Source of the DNA: a virus
DNA: 20,266 nt
Virus record (IMG/VR): IMGVR_UViG_3300018424_000345
Location: 1 to 20,266 of that record
Direction: 5' to 3' (one strand)
Every line of letters begins with the position of its first letter. The first letter of the stretch is position 1. Positions 719 to 14,968 of the stretch are shown piece after piece. The notes beneath the pieces were generated by a model. It saw only the letters and a program-made list of their open reading frames with translations, had not been told where the DNA came from and made no database searches. The translations under genes were made by a program, and so were the position numbers.

Positions 719-747
719 ATCATATCATACACTCAGTGTATTGTCAA
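719..747 (-). promoter_or_regulatory. Early sigma70-type promoter of gp43 with palindrome in the spacer
   Basis: On the minus strand TTGACA (747-742) is followed by a 17-nt spacer and TATGAT (724-719), with an extended -10 TGA. The six bases ACATCT separate the -10 box from ATG 712, so +1 is predicted on the start codon. The -35 box contains the TGA stop of dam (746-744). The spacer holds the perfect palindrome TACACTGAGTGTA (740-728). Confidence 0.85.
728..740. promoter_or_regulatory. 13-nt palindrome, operator candidate
   Basis: TACACTCAGTGTA reads as 6+1+6 with perfect dyad symmetry and lies wholly between the -35 and -10 boxes of the gp43 promoter. That is a typical place for a repressor to block RNA polymerase. 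In read-through RNA from upstream it could also form a short hairpin of about 5 bp with a 3-nt loop, 16 nt before the gp43 AUG. No candidate binding protein is identified. Confidence 0.5.
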
Positions 748-1628
748 CCGAAAAAATCTTCAAGGGTACTTGCACCTTGACTCTCATAGTTCCTTAGTAG
801 TAACTCCTTTCTATTGTGTTCGTCCTCACGATACTTCTGTCCGGAGTGCATCGTGTATGTAAGATCCCACTCTAACTGATCCCACCCAGTGTATGCATCC
901 CTCAGTGTCTCGTTAGAGTTGTAGGTAACCATCACCATAGAATCTGTTGAGTCAATTTGATCATGGAATCTTTTGTGACAGAACGAGTCGTGCATGTCAC
1001 CGTGATTACCATAGATGAAAGAGTTGATGTCATATGGTGGATCTGCAAAGATGAAAGTATTCTCATCTGCACCGTCACCTAGAAGATGTGAGTAGTCCTC
1101 GTTTGTGATTCTCCAGTTCCTCATGATGTGAGAGAACTTAGGTAGTTTGTCAATTAGTCTGTGATTGAACAAGTCCTTTACTGCGTCCTTACTAAAGGAT
1201 CCGGTAGACTCACCTAGACCAGAGAAACTGCATCTGTTCATGACGTAGAACATCCATGCAATCTCGAAAGGATCTTCTGCAGTGTTGAGACCCTCACGCA
1301 TCACATGGTAGTAGTCCAAGTGTGCCTGCAGAGAATCCTCCGCTTCAGATAGTTCTGTCTTTACACCGTGCAGTTTGTCTGCAAGTTTCTTACCGTCCTT
1401 CTGCAACTGCTTCCAGAAACAATACAGGTTGTAGTACTTGTCGTTTACCCACACCGGAATGTGTGGTCTCATCATAGAGAAATACAATGCACAACTACCA
1501 CCGCCGAGAAACATCTCACGGTACTCTTTTATTTCACGAGTCGGCATATTCTCTGCAGAAAACAAAAACTGTACTGCACGGGATTTACCGCCCGGATAAC
1601 GTAATGGGGTTTTTAGATCTTTATACAT
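744..1628 (-). CDS. dam: Dam-family DNA adenine methyltransferase
   Basis: This 294-aa protein resembles D12-class (Dam) N6-adenine methyltransferases, which methylate adenine, typically in GATC. The N-terminal TPLRYPGGKSRA (residues 8-19) and FLGGGS (40-45) form the S-adenosylmethionine site. FADPPYD (194-200) carries the catalytic DPPY. The start is ATG 1628, just ahead of the conserved PLRYPGGK; a longer open frame upstream has no support. There is no Shine-Dalgarno sequence. A perfect TTGACA-17-TATAAT promoter puts +1 on the A of this ATG, so the mRNA is predicted to be leaderless. The C-terminus, ASTLEDFFG, looks like a sliding-clamp-binding (PIP-like) peptide. The stop TGA lies inside the -35 box of the gp43 promoter. 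Target specificity cannot be read from the sequence. Confidence 0.92.
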   Translation of the reverse strand: MYKDLKTPLRYPGGKSRAVQFLFSAENMPTREIKEYREMFLGGGSCALYFSMMRPHIPVWVNDKYYNLYCFWKQLQKDGKKLADKLHGVKTELSEAEDSLQAHLDYYHVMREGLNTAEDPFEIAWMFYVMNRCSFSGLGESTGSFSKDAVKDLFNHRLIDKLPKFSHIMRNWRITNEDYSHLLGDGADENTFIFADPPYDINSFIYGNHGDMHDSFCHKRFHDQIDSTDSMVMVTYNSNETLRDAYTGWDQLEWDLTYTMHSGQKYREDEHNRKELLLRNYESQGASTLEDFFG

Positions 1629-1634
1629 GTGACC

Positions 1635-1663
1635 ATTATACCAAATGGAAATGGATTTGTCAA
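1635..1663 (-). promoter_or_regulatory. Perfect consensus early promoter of dam
   Basis: TTGACA (1663-1658), a 17-nt spacer ending TGG (extended -10), and TATAAT (1640-1635). Exactly six bases (GGTCAC) separate the -10 box from ATG 1628, predicting transcription from the A of the start codon. The -35 box contains the TGA stop (1662-1660) of the upstream gene. Confidence 0.9.
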
Positions 1664-4905: not shown

Positions 4906-5304
4906 TTATTTTCTTCCACCTTTCTGCACCTTATTCTTTATCTTGTTTAGAGAATCGGGTGAGAGTAGTGGTAAAACTTGACGTGCTTTGTCATTGCTAT
5001 ATCCATAATACTCTTTCACCGCCTCAATATCATTTAACGTTTCGGGTTTAACCCACTTAGGGAAACGCTTCCGTTTCCTTACTATATTTAGTAAAAAATG
5101 ATATTGTAACTTACTGTCTACATCCCAGTAGCGGTTCATTTCATTAGCTAGCAATACAGTATCATGTGAATAGGACAATCCACGATTCACCATATAAGAG
5201 TTATAGTGAGTCTCGTTCTCCACATCCATGATGTCTCGTTTACTATAGTTAATACTGTTTAGGAATTCAAAAGGCCCTAGTTTTGTTCCGTTCGACCCAT
5301 CCAT
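4906..5304 (-). CDS. 62: Clamp loader small subunit gp62
   Basis: gp62 forms, with gp44, the clamp loader that places the gp45 ring on DNA. The family is fast-evolving, but the N-terminal FEFLNSINYSKRDIM, then NEMNRYWDVDSKLQYHFLL, then RKRKRFPKWVKPE and the position just before regA support it. The start is uncertain. ATG 5304 has AGGA (5316-5313) 8 nt upstream and gives 132 aa. ATG 5322 or 5310 in the same frame would add 6 or 2 residues; 5322 lies only 2 nt beyond the start site predicted from the promoter. The 5' end overlaps the end of the sulfotransferase gene. It is shorter than T4 gp62 (187 aa). Confidence 0.85.
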   Translation of the reverse strand: MDGSNGTKLGPFEFLNSINYSKRDIMDVENETHYNSYMVNRGLSYSHDTVLLANEMNRYWDVDSKLQYHFLLNIVRKRKRFPKWVKPETLNDIEAVKEYYGYSNDKARQVLPLLSPDSLNKIKNKVQKGGRK

Positions 5305-6019
5305 AATCATAGTCCTGTTCATAAATTTTCATTATACGCTTTCTTTGTACGGTTGTCAAATTACTAACACCACCGTAGTATAAACCAGACGTACTGTTAG
5401 TATGTATTTGATGAAGTTTTTTACTCGTGCGAGTTGCCTTTTCCAACCATTTCAACATCGCATCAAAGTCTGACATCGCCCAGATATCTGTGTATTGACT
5501 TCGGTTTCCAAGAAAATGTGATTGCGGAAAGAAGTGAGCATTGATTAAACCACCTGATCTAACCTCTGTTATCAAGTCATCCATCTTGTCAGGTATCTCA
5601 TCTAGTTCTGACAAACTCATGTAGAGTTTTCCTTTCTGATCTAGATCTAGATGGGTATTTGACTCCAGAAATGAAGACTCTTTTACCCATTGCAGTTTTA
5701 GATACTCTGCAGCAGACAAAAATCGTTCAATCGGATCACGTACAACAGTAACACGACTCGTGTTAACTCTCCACGGCAATAGCGTGGACTCTCCCTTTTC
5801 TTTAATCTCTTTCAGTCTATGTCCTTTGGTTCCACAGTTTGCAGCAAACTCAGGATCATCTTCCACACTGATTTTGTAGACATGCCACAGTGCCCATTTC
5901 AGTGTCGTGATTCCATTCTTGGGACACAGACGAATGTCTATGTTCTGTGGGAAATACAATACGTTGTCTTGGGGTGTCATAGTTCCACGCAATTTGTTGT
6001 GGATGATGTGACGCATCAT
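5267..6019 (-). CDS. Sulfotransferase family protein
   Basis: About 250 aa. CPKNGITTLKW (residues 32-42 from ATG 6019) matches the 5' PAPS-binding loop of carbohydrate sulfotransferases (usually PKsGtTtl). TVVRDPIERFLSA (from residue 91) matches the 3'-phosphate loop (vRdP..Rf.S). HFFPQSHFLG further on is typical of the Sulfotransfer_2 group. The enzyme would transfer sulfate from PAPS to a glycan, lipid or protein. The start is ambiguous: ATG 6019 or 6016, or TTG 6046, which overlaps the dCMP deaminase stop as TTGA; no version has a good ribosome binding site. The 3' end overlaps gp62 and contains its promoter. This is an uncommon accessory gene inside a replisome cluster. Confidence 0.75.
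   Translation of the reverse strand: MMRHIIHNKLRGTMTPQDNVLYFPQNIDIRLCPKNGITTLKWALWHVYKISVEDDPEFAANCGTKGHRLKEIKEKGESTLLPWRVNTSRVTVVRDPIERFLSAAEYLKLQWVKESSFLESNTHLDLDQKGKLYMSLSELDEIPDKMDDLITEVRSGGLINAHFFPQSHFLGNRSQYTDIWAMSDFDAMLKWLEKATRTSKKLHQIHTNSTSGLYYGGVSNLTTVQRKRIMKIYEQDYDYGWVERNKTRAF
5331..5359 (-). promoter_or_regulatory. Perfect consensus early promoter of gp62-regA
   Basis: TTGACA (5359-5354), a 17-nt spacer and TATAAT (5336-5331), located inside the 3' end of the sulfotransferase gene. Predicted +1 is near 5324, giving a leader of about 20 nt to ATG 5304, or only 2 nt to ATG 5322. No extended -10 here. Confidence 0.85.
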
Positions 6020-6042
6020 ATTTTCTGTTTCACGTAATTCTT

Positions 6043-6474
6043 TCAAAGGCGGTCAACCTGTATTTTGCATTTATTTAAAAACTCTAATCCGCCATTGTCT
6101 TTGGGGTAATCGTCCTTATATACCACTCGACTAATACCGGATTGGTAAATTAATTTGGCACAATCCATACAGGGTGCCATAGTAGTATATAGTGTAGATC
6201 CTTCGCAAGATTCTGTACTACGTGCAACTTTTGCGATAGCATTGGTTTCTGCATGAAGAACCTCTTTCTTGGTCACCAATTCTGTAAGACCAAGTTCGTG
6301 TGCCCTTACTTGAAACTCGCACTCATTGTCCCAACCCGTTGGCATACCGTTGTAACCAATCGACTGAATGCGATTGTCTTTAACGATAACACAACCTACG
6401 TGTGCACGTCTTGCGGAAGACAAATTGGCATATACTTCTGCCGCTTCCATATGTGCGGTATCCCATTTATTCAT
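6043..6474 (-). CDS. cd: dCMP deaminase (ComE/Cd family)
   Basis: A 143-aa zinc-dependent cytidine/deoxycytidylate deaminase. HAETNAIAK (H74, E76) is the zinc ligand and catalytic glutamate, and MAPCMDCAKLI (C102, C105) gives the other two zinc ligands. It converts dCMP to dUMP for dTTP synthesis and so matches phage precursor supply. The start is ATG 6474, with GAGGA (6485-6481) 6 nt upstream; the GTG codon before it is unlikely. It is shorter than the T4 enzyme (193 aa). It overlaps the 3' end of the psiE gene by 8 nt, and its own stop is joined to a TTG of the sulfotransferase frame. Confidence 0.93.
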   Translation of the reverse strand: MNKWDTAHMEAAEVYANLSSARRAHVGCVIVKDNRIQSIGYNGMPTGWDNECEFQVRAHELGLTELVTKKEVLHAETNAIAKVARSTESCEGSTLYTTMAPCMDCAKLIYQSGISRVVYKDDYPKDNGGLEFLNKCKIQVDRL

Positions 6475-6865
6475 CACGCATCCTCATTTTCTCTAAACTC
6501 AACTTATCCTTCAGAGACATCAAGTATGCAGATCCCGACAAGATAGCGATTGCACCAGCTTCTGCGAGTAACTGCATCATCTCCATCTCTTTACTATGTA
6601 AGATGATAAGTCTGCACAGTGCCGTCACCGCAATGATGATCGGAAGTGTTACCGGAATACGTGTGGTACTGTAGAACGCACCGACCATACCCAATACTTC
6701 TGCGTAGATAAACAACATGAATAGATCCGACAGTTCTACAGTCAGGTCAACGTACATATCATATATGTACTGTCCTGCGGCAATTATCGTCAGTGATCCA
6801 ATGATACCCAGTAAAATTTTCTCACTCAGTTCGGTTGTCCAGTGTAACTTTCTATCAATGGTCAT
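6467..6865 (-). CDS. psiE: PsiE-family membrane protein
   Basis: A 132-aa protein with four predicted membrane segments (near residues 16-34, 45-66, 72-86 and 95-112). The central FIYAEVLGMVGAFYSTTRIP, then a second run ending TALCRLIILHSKE, matches the PsiE pattern (YFEFI...ITAIVRLIIVDHK in E. coli). PsiE is named for induction by phosphate starvation and its biochemical role is unsettled. The start is ATG 6865 because AAGGG (6878-6874) lies 8 nt upstream; ATG 6871 would be only 2 nt from it. The gene overlaps the 34-aa membrane gene before it and the dCMP deaminase after it, so the three are likely translated together. It may be an auxiliary gene linked to phosphate stress or membrane energetics. 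Confidence 0.75.
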   Translation of the reverse strand: MTIDRKLHWTTELSEKILLGIIGSLTIIAAGQYIYDMYVDLTVELSDLFMLFIYAEVLGMVGAFYSTTRIPVTLPIIIAVTALCRLIILHSKEMEMMQLLAEAGAIAILSGSAYLMSLKDKLSLEKMRMRDE

Positions 6866-6959
6866 CGTCATTACCCTTAATGAGAATCCAAATCGTACCT
6901 ACGACTAGTGCCGTTAAGATAAAAATAAATTCCATTTGCATATCCACACCTGTCTCCAT
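6855..6959 (-). CDS. 34-aa single-pass membrane microprotein before psiE
   Basis: The ORF ATG 6959 to TGA 6857-6855 encodes METGVDMQ followed by a hydrophobic helix (MEFIFILTALVVGTIWILI) and a charged tail KGNDDDH. The ATG overlaps the gp44 stop as TAATG. GGAGG inside the last gp44 codons lies 7 nt upstream, an excellent ribosome binding site. The 3' end overlaps the psiE start by 11 nt. That gives the chain gp44 - microprotein - psiE - dCMP deaminase with an overlap at each joint. A partner of PsiE in the membrane is possible, but that is inference from gene order only. No family recognised. Confidence 0.7.
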   Translation of the reverse strand: METGVDMQMEFIFILTALVVGTIWILIKGNDDDH

Positions 6960-7926: not shown

Positions 7927-7955
7927 AGTATATCAAACGAGACAGTACATGTCAA
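7927..7955 (-). promoter_or_regulatory. Early promoter of gp44
   Basis: TTGACA (7955-7950) starts 2 nt after the CCA end of the tRNA-Arg(ACG) gene, followed by a 17-nt spacer ending TGA (extended -10) and TATACT (7932-7927). Predicted +1 is near 7920, which leaves a 23-nt leader with a normal Shine-Dalgarno sequence for gp44. Confidence 0.85.
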
Positions 7956-9225: not shown

Positions 9226-9254
9226 ATAATAACACTATGACTTTCACTTGTCAA
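9226..9254 (-). promoter_or_regulatory. Early promoter of gp45
   Basis: TTGACA (9254-9249) lies inside the last codons of the oxygenase gene. It is followed by a 17-nt spacer ending TGT (extended -10) and TATTAT (9231-9226). Predicted +1 is near 9219, leaving a 29-nt AT-rich leader with a good Shine-Dalgarno sequence. Confidence 0.8.
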
Positions 9255-9783: not shown

Positions 9784-9947
9784 GATTTTTTCCAGATTTC
9801 GTCATAATTACAATGTCGCAGGTGACCCTCTTCAGTCTCATATACAAATTGATTACCAAGTAGTTGCACTACCTTACCAGTGTTCTCTCGTAGGAACGAG
9901 GGTTCCTTATGAGTTATAACGTCTCCGATCTTAGGTTTTTTCTTCAT
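9780..9947 (-). CDS. 55-aa hypothetical protein between gp46 and the oxygenase
   Basis: The frame from ATG 9947 to TGA 9782-9780 encodes a basic N-terminus MKKKPKIGDVITHKEPSFLR, then GKVVQLLGNQFVYETEEGH and a C-terminal NYDEIWKKS. The pattern (KIGD.. then short strands) suggests a small beta-barrel-like fold, which is only an impression. It overlaps the gp46 stop as ATGA and joins the oxygenase as TTGA, so all three are probably translated as a chain. No family is recognised. Confidence 0.75.
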   Translation of the reverse strand: MKKKPKIGDVITHKEPSFLRENTGKVVQLLGNQFVYETEEGHLRHCNYDEIWKKS

Positions 9948-11665
9948 GCCGCCTTCAGTTTTGAGAAGTTCTTTTCCTTGACGAATTCCAGTTTGCGTTG
10001 GAACTGTGCGTCCTCTAGTTCTGATTTGTGAGAGATTACAAATACGTTAGTCTCTTCACCCAGACTATACAGGATCTTCATCAAGTTGTCAACCCCATCA
10101 TCGTCCAGAGATGAATCGAATGTCTCATCAAGGATCAGTAGGTTGGTTGCAACACTGTTCTTCATCTTTGCAATCTGTCTCCACGTAAACAGTAGGGACA
10201 AATCGATACGTTGCTTCTCACCCTCAGAGAATGAGTCATACGAGAAGTTGTCACGGAATCGTGAACGGATGGTCTCGTTGAAACTTTCGTCTAAGTCGAA
10301 GTGGACAAAGAAGTCTAGAATCTGTAGATACTGATTGGTCAGTTGATTGATAACAGGGATGTACTGTTTGATGATCTTGGTCTTGATACCAGAATCTTTC
10401 AGTAACTCACTGCTGATTTGATTGTAGGAGTACTGCTCGTGTAGAGTGTACTTCTCATCTTGTTTTGATTCTAAGTCTTTACTTAGTTGTTCTAACTCAG
10501 CGTTTGCTTCTGCGAACTGGGATTTAGTGTCGGACATTTCATCGATTTCGTTTCGGATTCGGTCAATGTCTCGTTGGAGTCTGGTGATAGTGGATTGGTT
10601 TGATTGGACTGCATTCTGTAGATCTCTCGCTGTCTCGTAAGACGCTGTAAGTTCGCCCTGTGTCTGTTCATACTTGTCCATTTCCTCCTTCGATTTCGTG
10701 ATGGCATCGTTTAGTTCTTTCGCACGTGTTTGTGCGTCAGACTTTTTAGTCTCCCGAAGTGTATCGTCAATAGATTGATCACAAGTGGGGCAAATTTCGT
10801 TTTCGTCAAAGAACTTAGCTTCCTTGACCACAGTCTTTATCTGAGACTTGAAGGTGGATTGGAACTCAATCAACTTCTGTTTCTTAGTATTTAGACTTTC
10901 TAATTTTTTCGACACGTCATCAAGTTGTGTCGATGCGTTCGACATGTTCTTGTCGTTAAAGTCATTGAGTTCTTTAATCTCCGCATACAGTGCGGTGATT
11001 GCATCCTCTTTCTCCGCACGGTGTGCAGTGTTCAGTGCAGTAAGTTCACGCAGAGATTTTTTCTGTGCGTTGATCTTAGTCTTGATTAACTCAATACCAT
11101 GTCCGTTGTCAGTGATCTCTCCCTTGAGTATAGACATCTTCTCTTTGAGTAGACCGTTCATCTTAGAGAAGATATTGATGTCGAGTAGATCCTCAATCAC
11201 TTCTCTACGTGCACCACCAGACAACTGCATGAATGGTACGAACGAACTTGATCCCAGAACAACAATCTGGTGAAACGACTTATGCGTCAACTTTAGAATG
11301 TTCTTCTCAAGCATCTGTTGATATTCTTTGGCATGGGAACTCTGGTTCAACATGTTACCACCTACCCAGATCTCAAACTTATTAGGTTTGATACCACGCA
11401 CTACCTTGTACTTCTGAGAACCAATAGAGAACTCCACCTCAACCAGTGTACCCTTGTTGTTAATCGTATTGACCAACTGTGCCTTAGAGATCTTACGGTG
11501 TGGTTTACCAAACAAACCAAACGACAGGGCATCCAACATAGTGGACTTACCTGCACCGTTGTGACCGACTACAAGAGTAGTGGATGAAGTTGTAAAATCT
11601 ATATCAGTGAAGTTGTTACCGGATGACAAGAAATTCTTGTACCGGAGTTTTTCAAACTTAATCAA
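9944..11665 (-). CDS. 46: Recombination endonuclease subunit gp46 (Rad50-like)
   Basis: A 573-aa SMC/Rad50-type ATPase (T4 gp46 is 560 aa). With gp47 it resects DNA ends for recombination-dependent replication. Walker A GHNGAGKS (34-41), a long coiled coil on both sides of a zinc hook CPTC (292-295), signature FSEGEKQRIDL (479-489), Walker B NLLILDETFD (508-517), and the switch histidine in ISHKSE (545). IIKQYIPVINQ and LLFTW also match T4. The start is TTG 11665: it gives MIKFEKLRYKNF, the expected N-terminus, and GAGG lies about 9 nt upstream. It overlaps the preceding 66-aa gene by 8 nt. Identification is very secure. Confidence 0.97.
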   Translation of the reverse strand: MIKFEKLRYKNFLSSGNNFTDIDFTTSSTTLVVGHNGAGKSTMLDALSFGLFGKPHRKISKAQLVNTINNKGTLVEVEFSIGSQKYKVVRGIKPNKFEIWVGGNMLNQSSHAKEYQQMLEKNILKLTHKSFHQIVVLGSSSFVPFMQLSGGARREVIEDLLDINIFSKMNGLLKEKMSILKGEITDNGHGIELIKTKINAQKKSLRELTALNTAHRAEKEDAITALYAEIKELNDFNDKNMSNASTQLDDVSKKLESLNTKKQKLIEFQSTFKSQIKTVVKEAKFFDENEICPTCDQSIDDTLRETKKSDAQTRAKELNDAITKSKEEMDKYEQTQGELTASYETARDLQNAVQSNQSTITRLQRDIDRIRNEIDEMSDTKSQFAEANAELEQLSKDLESKQDEKYTLHEQYSYNQISSELLKDSGIKTKIIKQYIPVINQLTNQYLQILDFFVHFDLDESFNETIRSRFRDNFSYDSFSEGEKQRIDLSLLFTWRQIAKMKNSVATNLLILDETFDSSLDDDGVDNLMKILYSLGEETNVFVISHKSELEDAQFQRKLEFVKEKNFSKLKAA

Positions 11666-11858
11666 ACGTACCGTCCTCTTTCATTCCACACCAGTTGCAA
11701 GATGCACCTTTCTCAATAGTAAGATGGCCATCATGTTTGCAATGGTGTTCCCAACCTTCCATGTTTTTCTTACGGAAGATTTTATCATAATTATCACGAT
11801 ACTTATCCGACATTTTAGTCATGATAGTATCGCCAGTAATGTCATTTTTTGTTGCCAT
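11658..11858 (-). CDS. 66-aa conserved-looking Cys/His protein
   Basis: MATKNDITGDTIMTKMSDKY, then a basic segment (IFRKKNMEGWEHH), then HHCKHDGHL and SCNWCGMKEDG. Two cysteines in CNWC with the upstream C/H cluster suggest a small zinc-binding knuckle. The ATG 11858 has AGGTGA 3 nt upstream. However, a promoter places +1 only 3 nt before the ATG, so this site would be present only in longer transcripts. The gene runs into gp46 with an 8-nt overlap. I recall similar short proteins in other T4-like marine phages but cannot name a function. Confidence 0.75.
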   Translation of the reverse strand: MATKNDITGDTIMTKMSDKYRDNYDKIFRKKNMEGWEHHCKHDGHLTIEKGASCNWCGMKEDGTFD

Positions 11859-11867
11859 ATTTCACCT

Positions 11868-11897
11868 ATAATATCACAGTTCACGCCAATTGTCAAG
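11868..11897 (-). promoter_or_regulatory. Early promoter of the 66-aa gene and gp46
   Basis: TTGACA (11897-11892), an 18-nt spacer ending TGA (extended -10) and TATTAT (11873-11868). The -35 box lies within the last codons of the Mom-like gene. Predicted +1 (about 11861) is 3 nt before ATG 11858, so the RNA would be almost leaderless. Confidence 0.75.
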
Positions 11898-12392
11898 CAG
11901 TTCTTTATCGTAGACTTTACCAAACACATGATAAGTCACAGAGTAATCATCCGGCACTAGGTTATTTTCTTTACCGTAGTAGTCAAAGTTAGTTGCATGA
12001 TAGATCGTTCCATCATGGTATCGGTCATCTGCAAGTGTTAAAAGAAACCTAACGTCAAACTCTTGACGCAGTAACTTTATCGCACGTGACAAAAACCAAG
12101 AGGTTAAATTGTGCTCATCATGTGGTGCAACAGCTAATCTAACTATGTCCCAAAACCCTCTACCCTCTTCATAGAATCCAAAATAATCACGAATATCTTT
12201 TGCAGAGACCCGAGGGTCTGCCTCACAAAACTGGACTACACCAATCAACTCATCTTCTTTAAATAACCCATAGAAGATGTATTCACTATAGTACCAGTAA
12301 CGTAAAAATGCACCACGTAAGTAGTGGTGTTGTTGAAAGAATTTGTGTCCGAGATTACCACCACACTTTTTTACGGTGTACTGATCTTTCAC
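11874..12392 (-). CDS. Mom-like / GNAT-fold acyltransferase
   Basis: A 172-aa protein. FWDIVRLAVAPHDEHNLTSW with LSRAIKLLRQ, and then LTLADDRYHDGTIYHATNFD followed by YYGK, resemble the conserved blocks of phage Mu Mom and its relatives. These are acetyltransferase-fold proteins that modify adenine in DNA and give resistance to restriction enzymes. The N-terminal half, with LIGVVQF, fits the GNAT core strands. GTG 12392 overlaps the gp47 stop as TAGTG, so it is translated after gp47. It is inserted between the two subunits of the SbcCD-like nuclease. Activity on DNA is inferred from the family only; another GNAT substrate is possible. Confidence 0.65.
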   Translation of the reverse strand: MKDQYTVKKCGGNLGHKFFQQHHYLRGAFLRYWYYSEYIFYGLFKEDELIGVVQFCEADPRVSAKDIRDYFGFYEEGRGFWDIVRLAVAPHDEHNLTSWFLSRAIKLLRQEFDVRFLLTLADDRYHDGTIYHATNFDYYGKENNLVPDDYSVTYHVFGKVYDKELLDNWREL

Positions 12393-13456
12393 TATATGAC
12401 TTCCATAGATTGGGCTTCTGTCATCAAAACAGAAATCTCTCTCTTTATCCTATCCTTATCTAAGTCTGTGCTAACGTTGTCAATATAATCGTATACCAGT
12501 GTTTCGGTATCGTCAACAGATATGTTGTCATCCCCTACGTTCTCACCAAGGAAATCTTTGAAGTCTTCTGCGATCTTCAGTTCATGAATCTTCTGTTGCT
12601 GTACACGATCCACAAACCGTTCGAACTGATATGCATCACCCTTGTTAACCACAATGATCTTAACAAACTTGTTATCAAGGTATCGCATGTCCTTGAACTT
12701 GAAGTTCTCTACCTTCTCATGATCGTAGTAGATCTTCTCGTAGATAGTGATGGGGTTATGTACCGCAGTAATCTCTCTTGTTTCAGTATCAAGAATGTGG
12801 AAGTACTTCTTGTCATCACAGTCGTTCCAGAAGAACTCCATCTGTGATCCCAGATAGTGAATGTTTCCCTGCGACGATTTGGTGTGGAAGTGACCGGACA
12901 GAACCATCTCAAACTTATCGAAATGTTGTGCAGACATACCGTCCTTACATACTTGACCACGTGCCATCTCGAACCCAGATAATTCTAGGTGTGCACCCAC
13001 AACAGATGCCTTACAGTTCTCCAAGAATTTTAATGTCGCATTTTCGTTCTCTTGGTTGATCCACGGGATTAATGCGACATTTAAAGTGTCGTATTTCATC
13101 ACCGTAGGTTCCATGATCAGGTTCACTTCGTTCATGTAGTGACCCTGCAGTTCCTTCAGTGCGTTCAACTCATTAGTGTTCTTGTAGTACACGTCATGGT
13201 TGCCGGGAATGATATCCATAGTGATACCATACTCACGCAGCTTCTGCAGGAAAATTTTCCGGTTATGACTCAGTGCCTTGAAGTTGACCGTCTTACGATT
13301 ATCGTAGTAGTCTCCAAGGTGTATAATCTGAGTAATGTTGTTTTCTAACAGATACGGAAAGAACACCTCACTATAGAAGCGTTCTTGGTAATCCATAAAA
13401 ATGTCAGACGAGTTTCGACACCCTGCATGGGTATCGTTCAAAATTGCTATTTTCAT
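12392..13456 (-). CDS. 47: Recombination endonuclease subunit gp47 (Mre11-like)
   Basis: A 354-aa metallophosphoesterase nuclease (T4 gp47 is 339 aa), partner of gp46. All metal-binding motifs are visible: LNDTHAG (D8, H10), HLGDYYDNR (D49), IPGNHDV (N86, H87), VVGAHLEL (H155) and VLSGHFHTKS (H189, H191). ATG 13456 follows the stop of the 71-aa gene without a gap, with GAGG about 11 nt upstream. The promoter upstream of the two small genes is likely to serve it. Identification is very secure. Confidence 0.97.
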   Translation of the reverse strand: MKIAILNDTHAGCRNSSDIFMDYQERFYSEVFFPYLLENNITQIIHLGDYYDNRKTVNFKALSHNRKIFLQKLREYGITMDIIPGNHDVYYKNTNELNALKELQGHYMNEVNLIMEPTVMKYDTLNVALIPWINQENENATLKFLENCKASVVGAHLELSGFEMARGQVCKDGMSAQHFDKFEMVLSGHFHTKSSQGNIHYLGSQMEFFWNDCDDKKYFHILDTETREITAVHNPITIYEKIYYDHEKVENFKFKDMRYLDNKFVKIIVVNKGDAYQFERFVDRVQQQKIHELKIAEDFKDFLGENVGDDNISVDDTETLVYDYIDNVSTDLDKDRIKREISVLMTEAQSMEVI

Positions 13457-13672
13457 TTAATCATATGCCTCAATACAAAGGGATTCTTTATCACTAAACC
13501 TATATCCCGTTGCTTTCATAAAATCCTCCAATACTTGCAACATATCATCACGTGACAGATCCTTCTGCATAACGTCAATAGTAACACGTGTGTTCACGGA
13601 TGTTTCATGCTCGTAGGGATGACAGATCAGTTGTATATACGGTTTATCCAGTGGTGGATTATTATATCCCAT
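13457..13672 (-). CDS. 71-aa hypothetical protein before gp47
   Basis: Encodes MGYNNPPLDKPYIQLICHPY, then HETSVNTRVTIDVMQKDLSR and a helix ending in EDFMKATGYRF. KPYIQLICHPYEHE suggests a small alpha/beta protein, and the segment DDMLQVLEDFMKATGY looks like an amphipathic helix. I start it at ATG 13672, which overlaps the stop of the 39-aa gene as TGATG and has GGGAGG about 11 nt upstream. A longer frame from GTG 13732 overlaps that gene and has no ribosome binding site. Its stop directly abuts gp47. Function unknown. Confidence 0.7.
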   Translation of the reverse strand: MGYNNPPLDKPYIQLICHPYEHETSVNTRVTIDVMQKDLSRDDMLQVLEDFMKATGYRFSDKESLCIEAYD

Positions 13673-13791
13673 CAATCTGCATACCTCCCATGATTTATCA
13701 GGTGATGCATTCTGTGACTGTGAATAGCCCACAATAATTTAATCAAAGAGGTTTCAGTATAGACCCCCGATTCACATATATATTTCCACAT
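13672..13791 (-). CDS. 39-aa hypothetical protein
   Basis: The frame ATG 13791 to TGA 13674-13672 encodes MWKYICESGVYTETSLIKLL, then WAIHSHRMHHLINHGRYAD. The Trp/His-rich tail (HSHRMHHLINHGR) is unusual and could bind a metal or a nucleic acid. AGGT lies about 8 nt upstream. The stop overlaps the start of the next gene as TGATG, which supports real translation. It is the first gene with a plausible ribosome binding site after the gp55-end promoter, with a leader of about 25 nt. No family can be named with confidence. Confidence 0.6.
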   Translation of the reverse strand: MWKYICESGVYTETSLIKLLWAIHSHRMHHLINHGRYAD

Positions 13792-13822: not shown

Positions 13823-13851
13823 AGTATACCACACTGAGATTTATTTGTCAA
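13823..13851 (-). promoter_or_regulatory. Early promoter upstream of the small genes and gp47
   Basis: TTGACA (13851-13846) contains the gp55 stop TGA (13850-13848). It is followed by a 17-nt spacer ending TGG (extended -10) and TATACT (13828-13823). Predicted +1 is near 13816. It should drive the 39-aa and 71-aa genes, gp47 and the Mom-like gene. Confidence 0.85.
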
Positions 13852-14471: not shown

Positions 14472-14500
14472 ATTATATGACATTCAGTGACCTTTGTCAA
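14472..14500 (-). promoter_or_regulatory. Perfect consensus early promoter of gp55
   Basis: TTGACA (14500-14495) inside the last codons of the cytidylyltransferase gene, a 17-nt spacer, and TATAAT (14477-14472). Predicted +1 is near 14465, with AGGAG (14459-14455) placed normally before ATG 14447. Confidence 0.9.
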
Positions 14501-14915
14501 CTATTTTCTGCCTCAATTTAGAGGTAGAGAATCCATGATCCCTTTTATTATAGTAGATCTCAATTCCTTTTAACTGACACTGATTTTTTCCTGTAAACTC
14601 TAGTGCACGATACTCCTCACCAATGATCCTCATGTCGATAGGATAGGTATCGAGAATATCTAACAGTTCGTGTTCGTACTCATACGGTACGATTTCGTCT
14701 ACATACTTTACTGCACTTAGTTGGATGTATCTTTCGGTTAGACCCTGCACAGGTTTGTTCTTCTCTAGTCGGTCTAGAGAGGGATCTACCTGTAGACCAC
14801 AGATCAAATAGTCGCAGACAGTCTTTGCCTCACGCAACATAGAGATGTGTCCTGCATGTAGTAAATCAAATGCAGATGCAGTAAATCCAACTTTTTTTCT
14901 TTTTTCGCTTGACAT
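14484..14915 (-). CDS. Cytidylyltransferase-like nucleotidyltransferase
   Basis: A 143-aa protein. FTASAFDLLHAGHISMLREA has the HxGH motif (H20-A-G-H23), and RDHGFSTSKLRQKI near the C-terminus matches the second signature (usually R.eGiSTt.i...i) of the glycerol-3-phosphate cytidylyltransferase (TagD-like) family. It would join CTP to a phosphorylated alcohol or sugar, making a CDP-activated precursor for a surface polymer or lipid. ATG 14915 follows an AT-rich 53-nt gap with TATTAT but no good -35. The ribosome binding site is weak. Its 3' end carries the gp55 promoter. The exact substrate cannot be read from the sequence. Confidence 0.85.
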   Translation of the reverse strand: MSSEKRKKVGFTASAFDLLHAGHISMLREAKTVCDYLICGLQVDPSLDRLEKNKPVQGLTERYIQLSAVKYVDEIVPYEYEHELLDILDTYPIDMRIIGEEYRALEFTGKNQCQLKGIEIYYNKRDHGFSTSKLRQKIVDKGH

Positions 14916-14968
14916 AATTAAAAATCCGTGATATAATAAGCTTGCCGTCTGGGGAAAAGAATATATAC

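Follow-up and report, generated by a model that had tools for sequence, protein, structure and literature searches.

A short Mom-family gene at the gp47-gp46 junction of a T4-related marine phage

Genes and promoter-like sites around mom

The window, by which we mean the whole stretch of DNA analyzed here, comprises 20,266 nt (positions 1 to 20,266 of IMG/VR record IMGVR_UViG_3300018424_000345). The source virus is a marine phage related to T4, and the window includes a T4-like block of gp45, gp46, gp47, the late sigma factor and UvsW, arranged in the order common to the Kyanoviridae phage C48C1. The gene at the center of this study, mom, is a 172-codon open reading frame on the minus strand (11874-12392) with a GTG start that overlaps the gp47 stop codon by one base. 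On its upstream side lies gp47, encoding the SbcD-like nuclease subunit (12392-13456, minus strand; phrog_100, E=1.7e-94), preceded by a 91-aa open reading frame from the ORF list, orf91 (13457-13732, minus strand). No function is assigned to orf91, and family profile searches gave no match of note for it. On the other side, mom is followed by a variable gene for a 66-aa Cys/His-rich protein (11658-11858, minus strand) and then by gp46, encoding the SbcC-like nuclease subunit (9944-11665, minus strand; phrog_77, E=5e-172). A sequence-only reading of this DNA had proposed a Mom-like candidate between gp47 and gp46; both the reading frame and its placement are confirmed, except that the small ORF separates mom from gp46. 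Elsewhere among the replication genes, the window encodes a sulfotransferase-family protein (5267-6046) and a PsiE-family protein (6467-6871).

The window contains ten perfect TTGACA-17-TATNNT sites, compared with 0.16 expected. Those on the minus strand are found at 719-747, 1635-1663, 5331-5359, 7927-7955, 9226-9254, 10064-10092, 11868-11896, 13823-13851 and 14472-14500. The remaining site (14909-14937, plus strand) lies in the gap at 14916-14968 and points in the opposite direction; a small or antisense RNA may be transcribed from it. These consensus early promoter-like sites head most of the short transcription units of the window.

Two of them frame the region of interest. The sigma70-type site at 13823-13851 (TTGACA-17-TATACT) lies upstream of orf91 and gp47, and occupies the same position in the closest relatives, L038 and L040. 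The site at 11868-11896 (TTGACA-17-TATTAT) precedes the 66-aa ORF and gp46, and its -35 box falls inside the last mom codons (...LDNWREL stop), an overlap that recurs in other mom alleles. The ATG of the 66-aa ORF at 11858 is only a short distance from the -10 box, resembling the promoter layout of the methylase gene described below. No TTGACA-17-TATNNT site of the window directly precedes mom. Because the nearest upstream site precedes orf91 and the next one begins inside the end of mom, we predict that mom is read through from an early unit starting with orf91 and gp47. By the same layout, the promoter on the gp46 side would travel with the end of a mom cassette.

Family, fold and short form of the window Mom

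By chemically modifying phage DNA, the known enzyme Mom hides it from bacterial defenses; the activity of the family is carbamoylmethylation of adenine N6 in DNA. The active site of Mu Mom has been reported to bind iron and acetyl-CoA. The window protein matched the Pfam family PF25680 'Mom' with 73.7 bits (E=2.2e-20; cut-off 27.1) and phrog_1384 'Mom-like DNA modification protein' with E=7e-20, both far above chance. It also aligned by sequence with Mu Mom (PDB 8bv8; E=7.7e-6), while an NCBIfam search returned no match. PF25680 was matched by all 22 of the 22 aligned relatives. Mom enzymes are common in viruses, with at least 547 confirmed relatives in a scan of the collection. In jumbo phages, according to one survey, Mom domains are often fused to endonuclease domains (PMC7824862).

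We then considered the structure. An AlphaFold2 model built from a 39-sequence alignment had a pLDDT of 87.8 and a pTM of 0.87. With this model as a query, Foldseek ranked Mu Mom 8bv8 first in the PDB (3.6e-11, the next protein scoring 1.5e-6). VIA-align likewise placed 8bv8 first (Z 17.1, rmsd 2.5 Å over 160 residues), with every other GNAT at Z <=13.3. As modeled, the protein thus has a GNAT fold that is closest to Mu Mom among solved structures. The 8bv8 entry is the crystallized phage Mu Mom described as 'inactive mutant S124A', and in the sequence alignment the mutated serine corresponds to S98 of the window protein. In a wider alignment that included Mu, PX29 and Phynn, the residues common to the window protein and Mu Mom are H23-Y24, R85, N95, S98, A121-D122, G128, Y131, A133, N135-F136 and G140. 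In other words, the two proteins share the GNAT core, the serine (S124 = S98), HY, R, N, AD, the G..Y.A.NF motif and a further G. The sequence-only reading had rested on one block, ADDRYHDGTIYHATNFD (residues 121-137), as a likeness of the conserved region of Mu Mom. Profile, fold and catalytic residue bear this likeness out, and the protein is a Mom-family member as a whole, well beyond that block. That reading had also named an unrelated GNAT lacking the Mom active-site residues as the best structural match that would speak against it; instead, 8bv8 ranks first and the Mom residues are kept. The gene is under purifying selection, with dN/dS of 0.20-0.34 among close copies in the window's own group; values in the other groups are mostly 0.06-0.5.

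The window Mom also differs from that of Mu. The two are 22-23% identical, and the window protein is without about 35 residues of the basic C-terminal segment of Mu Mom. After the NF-x-YYG motif it has 32 residues, of which 4 are K/R and 7 are D/E, whereas in full-length Moms of the long form this part typically spans 49-73 residues and includes 12-21 K/R. The basic segment present in Mu and most viral Moms is therefore missing, and the protein does not have the long-form layout. Its PF25680 match ends at profile position 139 of 202, compared with positions 1-199 for a long-form Mom (genome G007). In the tree, short Moms form one clade (19 rows, support 100/100) on a branch of 2.56 from other viral Moms, and the basic segment is absent throughout. 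The clade comprises 13 Moms from the gp47-gp46 junction and 6 from other marine phages; a grouping of every junction Mom in one clade was neither favored nor rejected (p-AU 0.36). The basic segment may serve DNA binding and, since it is missing, the window protein may have another mode of DNA binding or a different target.

The other marine phages of the short clade (100/100) carry mom away from this junction. In the two loci that we examined, L120 and L134, its neighbors are a NifU-like gene on one side and a gp32-type module on the other, as judged from gene names read from sequence. Moms of the L134 type (L134 2872-3393, L137 568-1116, L138 2872-3393, L141 1411-1923 and L145 2866-3417) form a subgroup that has kept the serine. 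This subgroup has lost HY and the D/H of a D-x3-H-x-G motif, and its activity has possibly changed.

Mom-family genes also occur in the T4-like isolates Aeromonas phage PX29, Pantoea phage Phynn and Synechococcus phage S-SSM7, but at other sites: by gene 49 and nrdAB, by a DNA methylase gene, and after psbA and tRNA genes. In a tree without S-SSM7, the PX29 and Phynn Moms fall outside the short clade. The nearest sequence in a named phage is a Mom-like ORF of Roseobacter phage CRP-212 (40% over 129 residues). Unlike the window Mom, this protein and its IMG/VR relatives are of the long form, have a MazG domain following Mom in the same frame and are encoded outside any T4-like gp47-gp46 context. 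The CRP-212 gene (gp15; L007 5836-6816) is annotated as MazG, yet its frame encodes Mom and then MazG, and the Mom match begins upstream of the annotated start.

The gp47-gp46 junction and the comparison with Mu-style control

Among 75 IMG/VR loci holding both flanking genes, mom is present at the junction in 28. At the remaining junctions, the two genes are separated by the small Cys-rich ORF alone, by a different ORF or by just 35-52 bases. The relatives compared, given here as L-numbered loci, are metagenome assemblies. One of them, L040, is 91% identical to the window in gp47 and 95% in gp46, but only 31% in Mom. At the DNA level, identity drops at the mom boundaries, stays at 0.51-0.61 across the gene and recovers on both sides. 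L040 joins the window in the gp46 tree (100/99) and in the gp47 tree (95/97), whereas in the mom tree it falls in another group (99/99). The gene can also be absent from otherwise near-identical phages. L053, which has no mom, and L057, which has it, show 100% identity across 900 bases of gp47 and 99.9% across 1500 bases of gp46. Because scraps of both mom ends, a few bases each, remain in L053 (2600-2760; compare L057 2620-3240), it looks like a mom deletion derivative. In C48C1, which among named phages is closest in gp46 (61%), gp47 and gp46 overlap by 4 bp and nothing lies between them. Two other loci have in the same gap an ORF of about 230 aa that is unrelated to mom and, by eye, looks like a dioxygenase (L091 3568-4263; L094 3493-4191).

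The junction is thus a site where related phages repeatedly gain, lose and swap mom alleles, and recombination through the flanking genes would be the simplest explanation. In the literature that our search covered, largely outside subscription journals, no paper described mom at the junction of gp47 and gp46. While the kind of enzyme is already familiar, its short form, the predicted early operon and the site of exchange look new.

Another adenine-modifying enzyme is encoded in the window, a D12-class adenine-N6 DNA methylase (744-1628, minus strand, within the listed ORF 744-1727; PF02086, E=4.9e-25). Its start is likely the ATG at 1628, and the alignment to PDB 7m6b begins at residue 38. 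The sequence-only reading had called this protein Dam. An adenine methylase is indeed present, but the label is more specific than the evidence, since among solved structures the protein is closest to 7m6b (E=3e-43) rather than to E. coli Dam (E=6e-4). The reading had further assigned both modification genes to the early promoter class. This holds for the methylase, which has a site immediately before it (1635-1663), but not in the same sense for mom, which has no site of its own and would rely on that at 13823-13851. In the methylase promoter, the end of the -10 box lies 7 bases upstream of the ATG at 1628 (window 1626-1663), so that the transcript would be nearly leaderless.

A linkage between Mom and Dam was considered and rejected: among 31 related contigs, D12 was detected in 2 and PF25680 in 14, and the two overlapped only in one long-form phage, neither D12 contig being from a junction-mom phage. 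Junction-mom relatives had no D12 methylase in contigs of up to 105 kb, a count that excludes the closest relatives L038 and L040, where the methylase region lies beyond the contigs. General N6/N4 methylase and Dam profiles also gave nothing over the cut-off in junction-mom contigs. As a separate observation, GATC is over-represented in the window (1-20266), occurring 124 times against a mean of 95.7, a count reached by 0 of 100 shuffles.

Nor did we find the elements by which Mu controls its mom gene. No GATC occurs within about 190 bp of the promoter-like site at 13823-13851, the nearest being at 13625 and 14048. No Com homolog was found, and the 66-aa neighbor gave no alignment with Mu Com. 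This small ORF sits downstream of mom and occurs independently of it (after dereplication, 8 of 9 mom loci and 16 of 19 other loci have it; Fisher p = 1), so we rejected it as a Mom partner. In place of a late, activator-dependent promoter, there is the consensus sigma70-type site upstream of orf91 and gp47. Mu-style Dam/OxyR/Com control is accordingly not supported and was rejected, including the Dam control that the sequence-only reading had cited from Mu. Thus, where Mu mom has Com, a late promoter and a GATC control region, the window gene sits in a predicted early operon with gp47.

Function of the junction Mom

The most likely function of the window Mom, to which we give a probability of about three in four, is adenine-N6 modification of phage DNA against restriction, carried out early by an enzyme whose gene occupies an exchange site. 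The GNAT enzyme would attach a carbamoylmethyl-type (acyl-derived) group to adenine N6 of the phage's own DNA, and host restriction endonucleases would then no longer cut it. Made early by read-through from orf91-gp47, Mom would mark new phage DNA during replication, and conserved gp47 and gp46 would serve as homology arms for gain, loss and exchange of mom alleles. Sporadic presence, intact alleles under purifying selection and their repeated replacement fit the idea that host restriction has shaped the gene, as is known for Mu mom. For Mu Mom, an anti-restriction effect and a non-essential role have been reported; Mu mom is, however, a late gene whose early or high expression is toxic (PMC4461284). 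The early-unit position of the window gene therefore speaks against the proposal, and so does the missing basic segment of its product.

The main rival explanation is that the short clade has changed its substrate, retaining the GNAT core and the serine while acylating a tRNA base, a host protein or a replication protein. Such a change would be in keeping with the loss of the basic segment in the whole clade, its long branch (2.56, 100/100), the loss of HY and the D/H residues in the sister group of L134, L137, L138, L141 and L145, and predicted expression that is early rather than late. Yet the window Mom keeps every residue shared with Mu Mom, its fold is nearest to Mom among solved GNATs, and its gene is surrounded by DNA-metabolism genes. 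We consequently regard a changed substrate as rather improbable, though it deserves more weight than any other alternative.

A more speculative extension of the anti-restriction reading, which we put forward as a long shot, is that the short Mom is guided to DNA by the neighboring gp46/gp47 or by the replication machinery. Modification would then be coupled to recombination and replication, and alleles would be swapped at the junction to shift the modification pattern against different hosts.

The sequence-only reading had also raised the idea that modified DNA is shielded from the phage's own resection, that is, that the mark spares phage DNA from gp46/gp47 while host DNA is degraded. The placement of mom in one transcription unit with gp47 and the recurrence of the junction position in many phages might favor this. 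However, mom is absent from the junction in relatives whose gp46 and gp47 are 88-100% identical, PF25680 matched nowhere in 17 contigs of this group without mom (up to 147 kb), and in C48C1 the two nuclease genes directly overlap. Because nearly identical nucleases exist without mom, protection from them is unlikely. Least probable of all is that mom is a decaying or inactive leftover, preserved solely because the gp46 promoter region includes part of it: although the -35 box of the 66-aa ORF/gp46 promoter falls in the last mom codons and L053 resembles a deletion retaining exactly that 3' end, the frame is intact and full-length, its catalytic residues are conserved, dN/dS is well below 1, and mom is repeatedly replaced by other intact alleles.

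Anti-restriction modification of phage DNA thus remains our preferred reading of the junction Mom. Marine phages, including near-identical ones with and without the gene, offer a natural series of mom alleles at one fixed site. With this series, one could test directly which restriction systems are blocked by Mom and whether DNA recognition requires the basic C-terminal segment.
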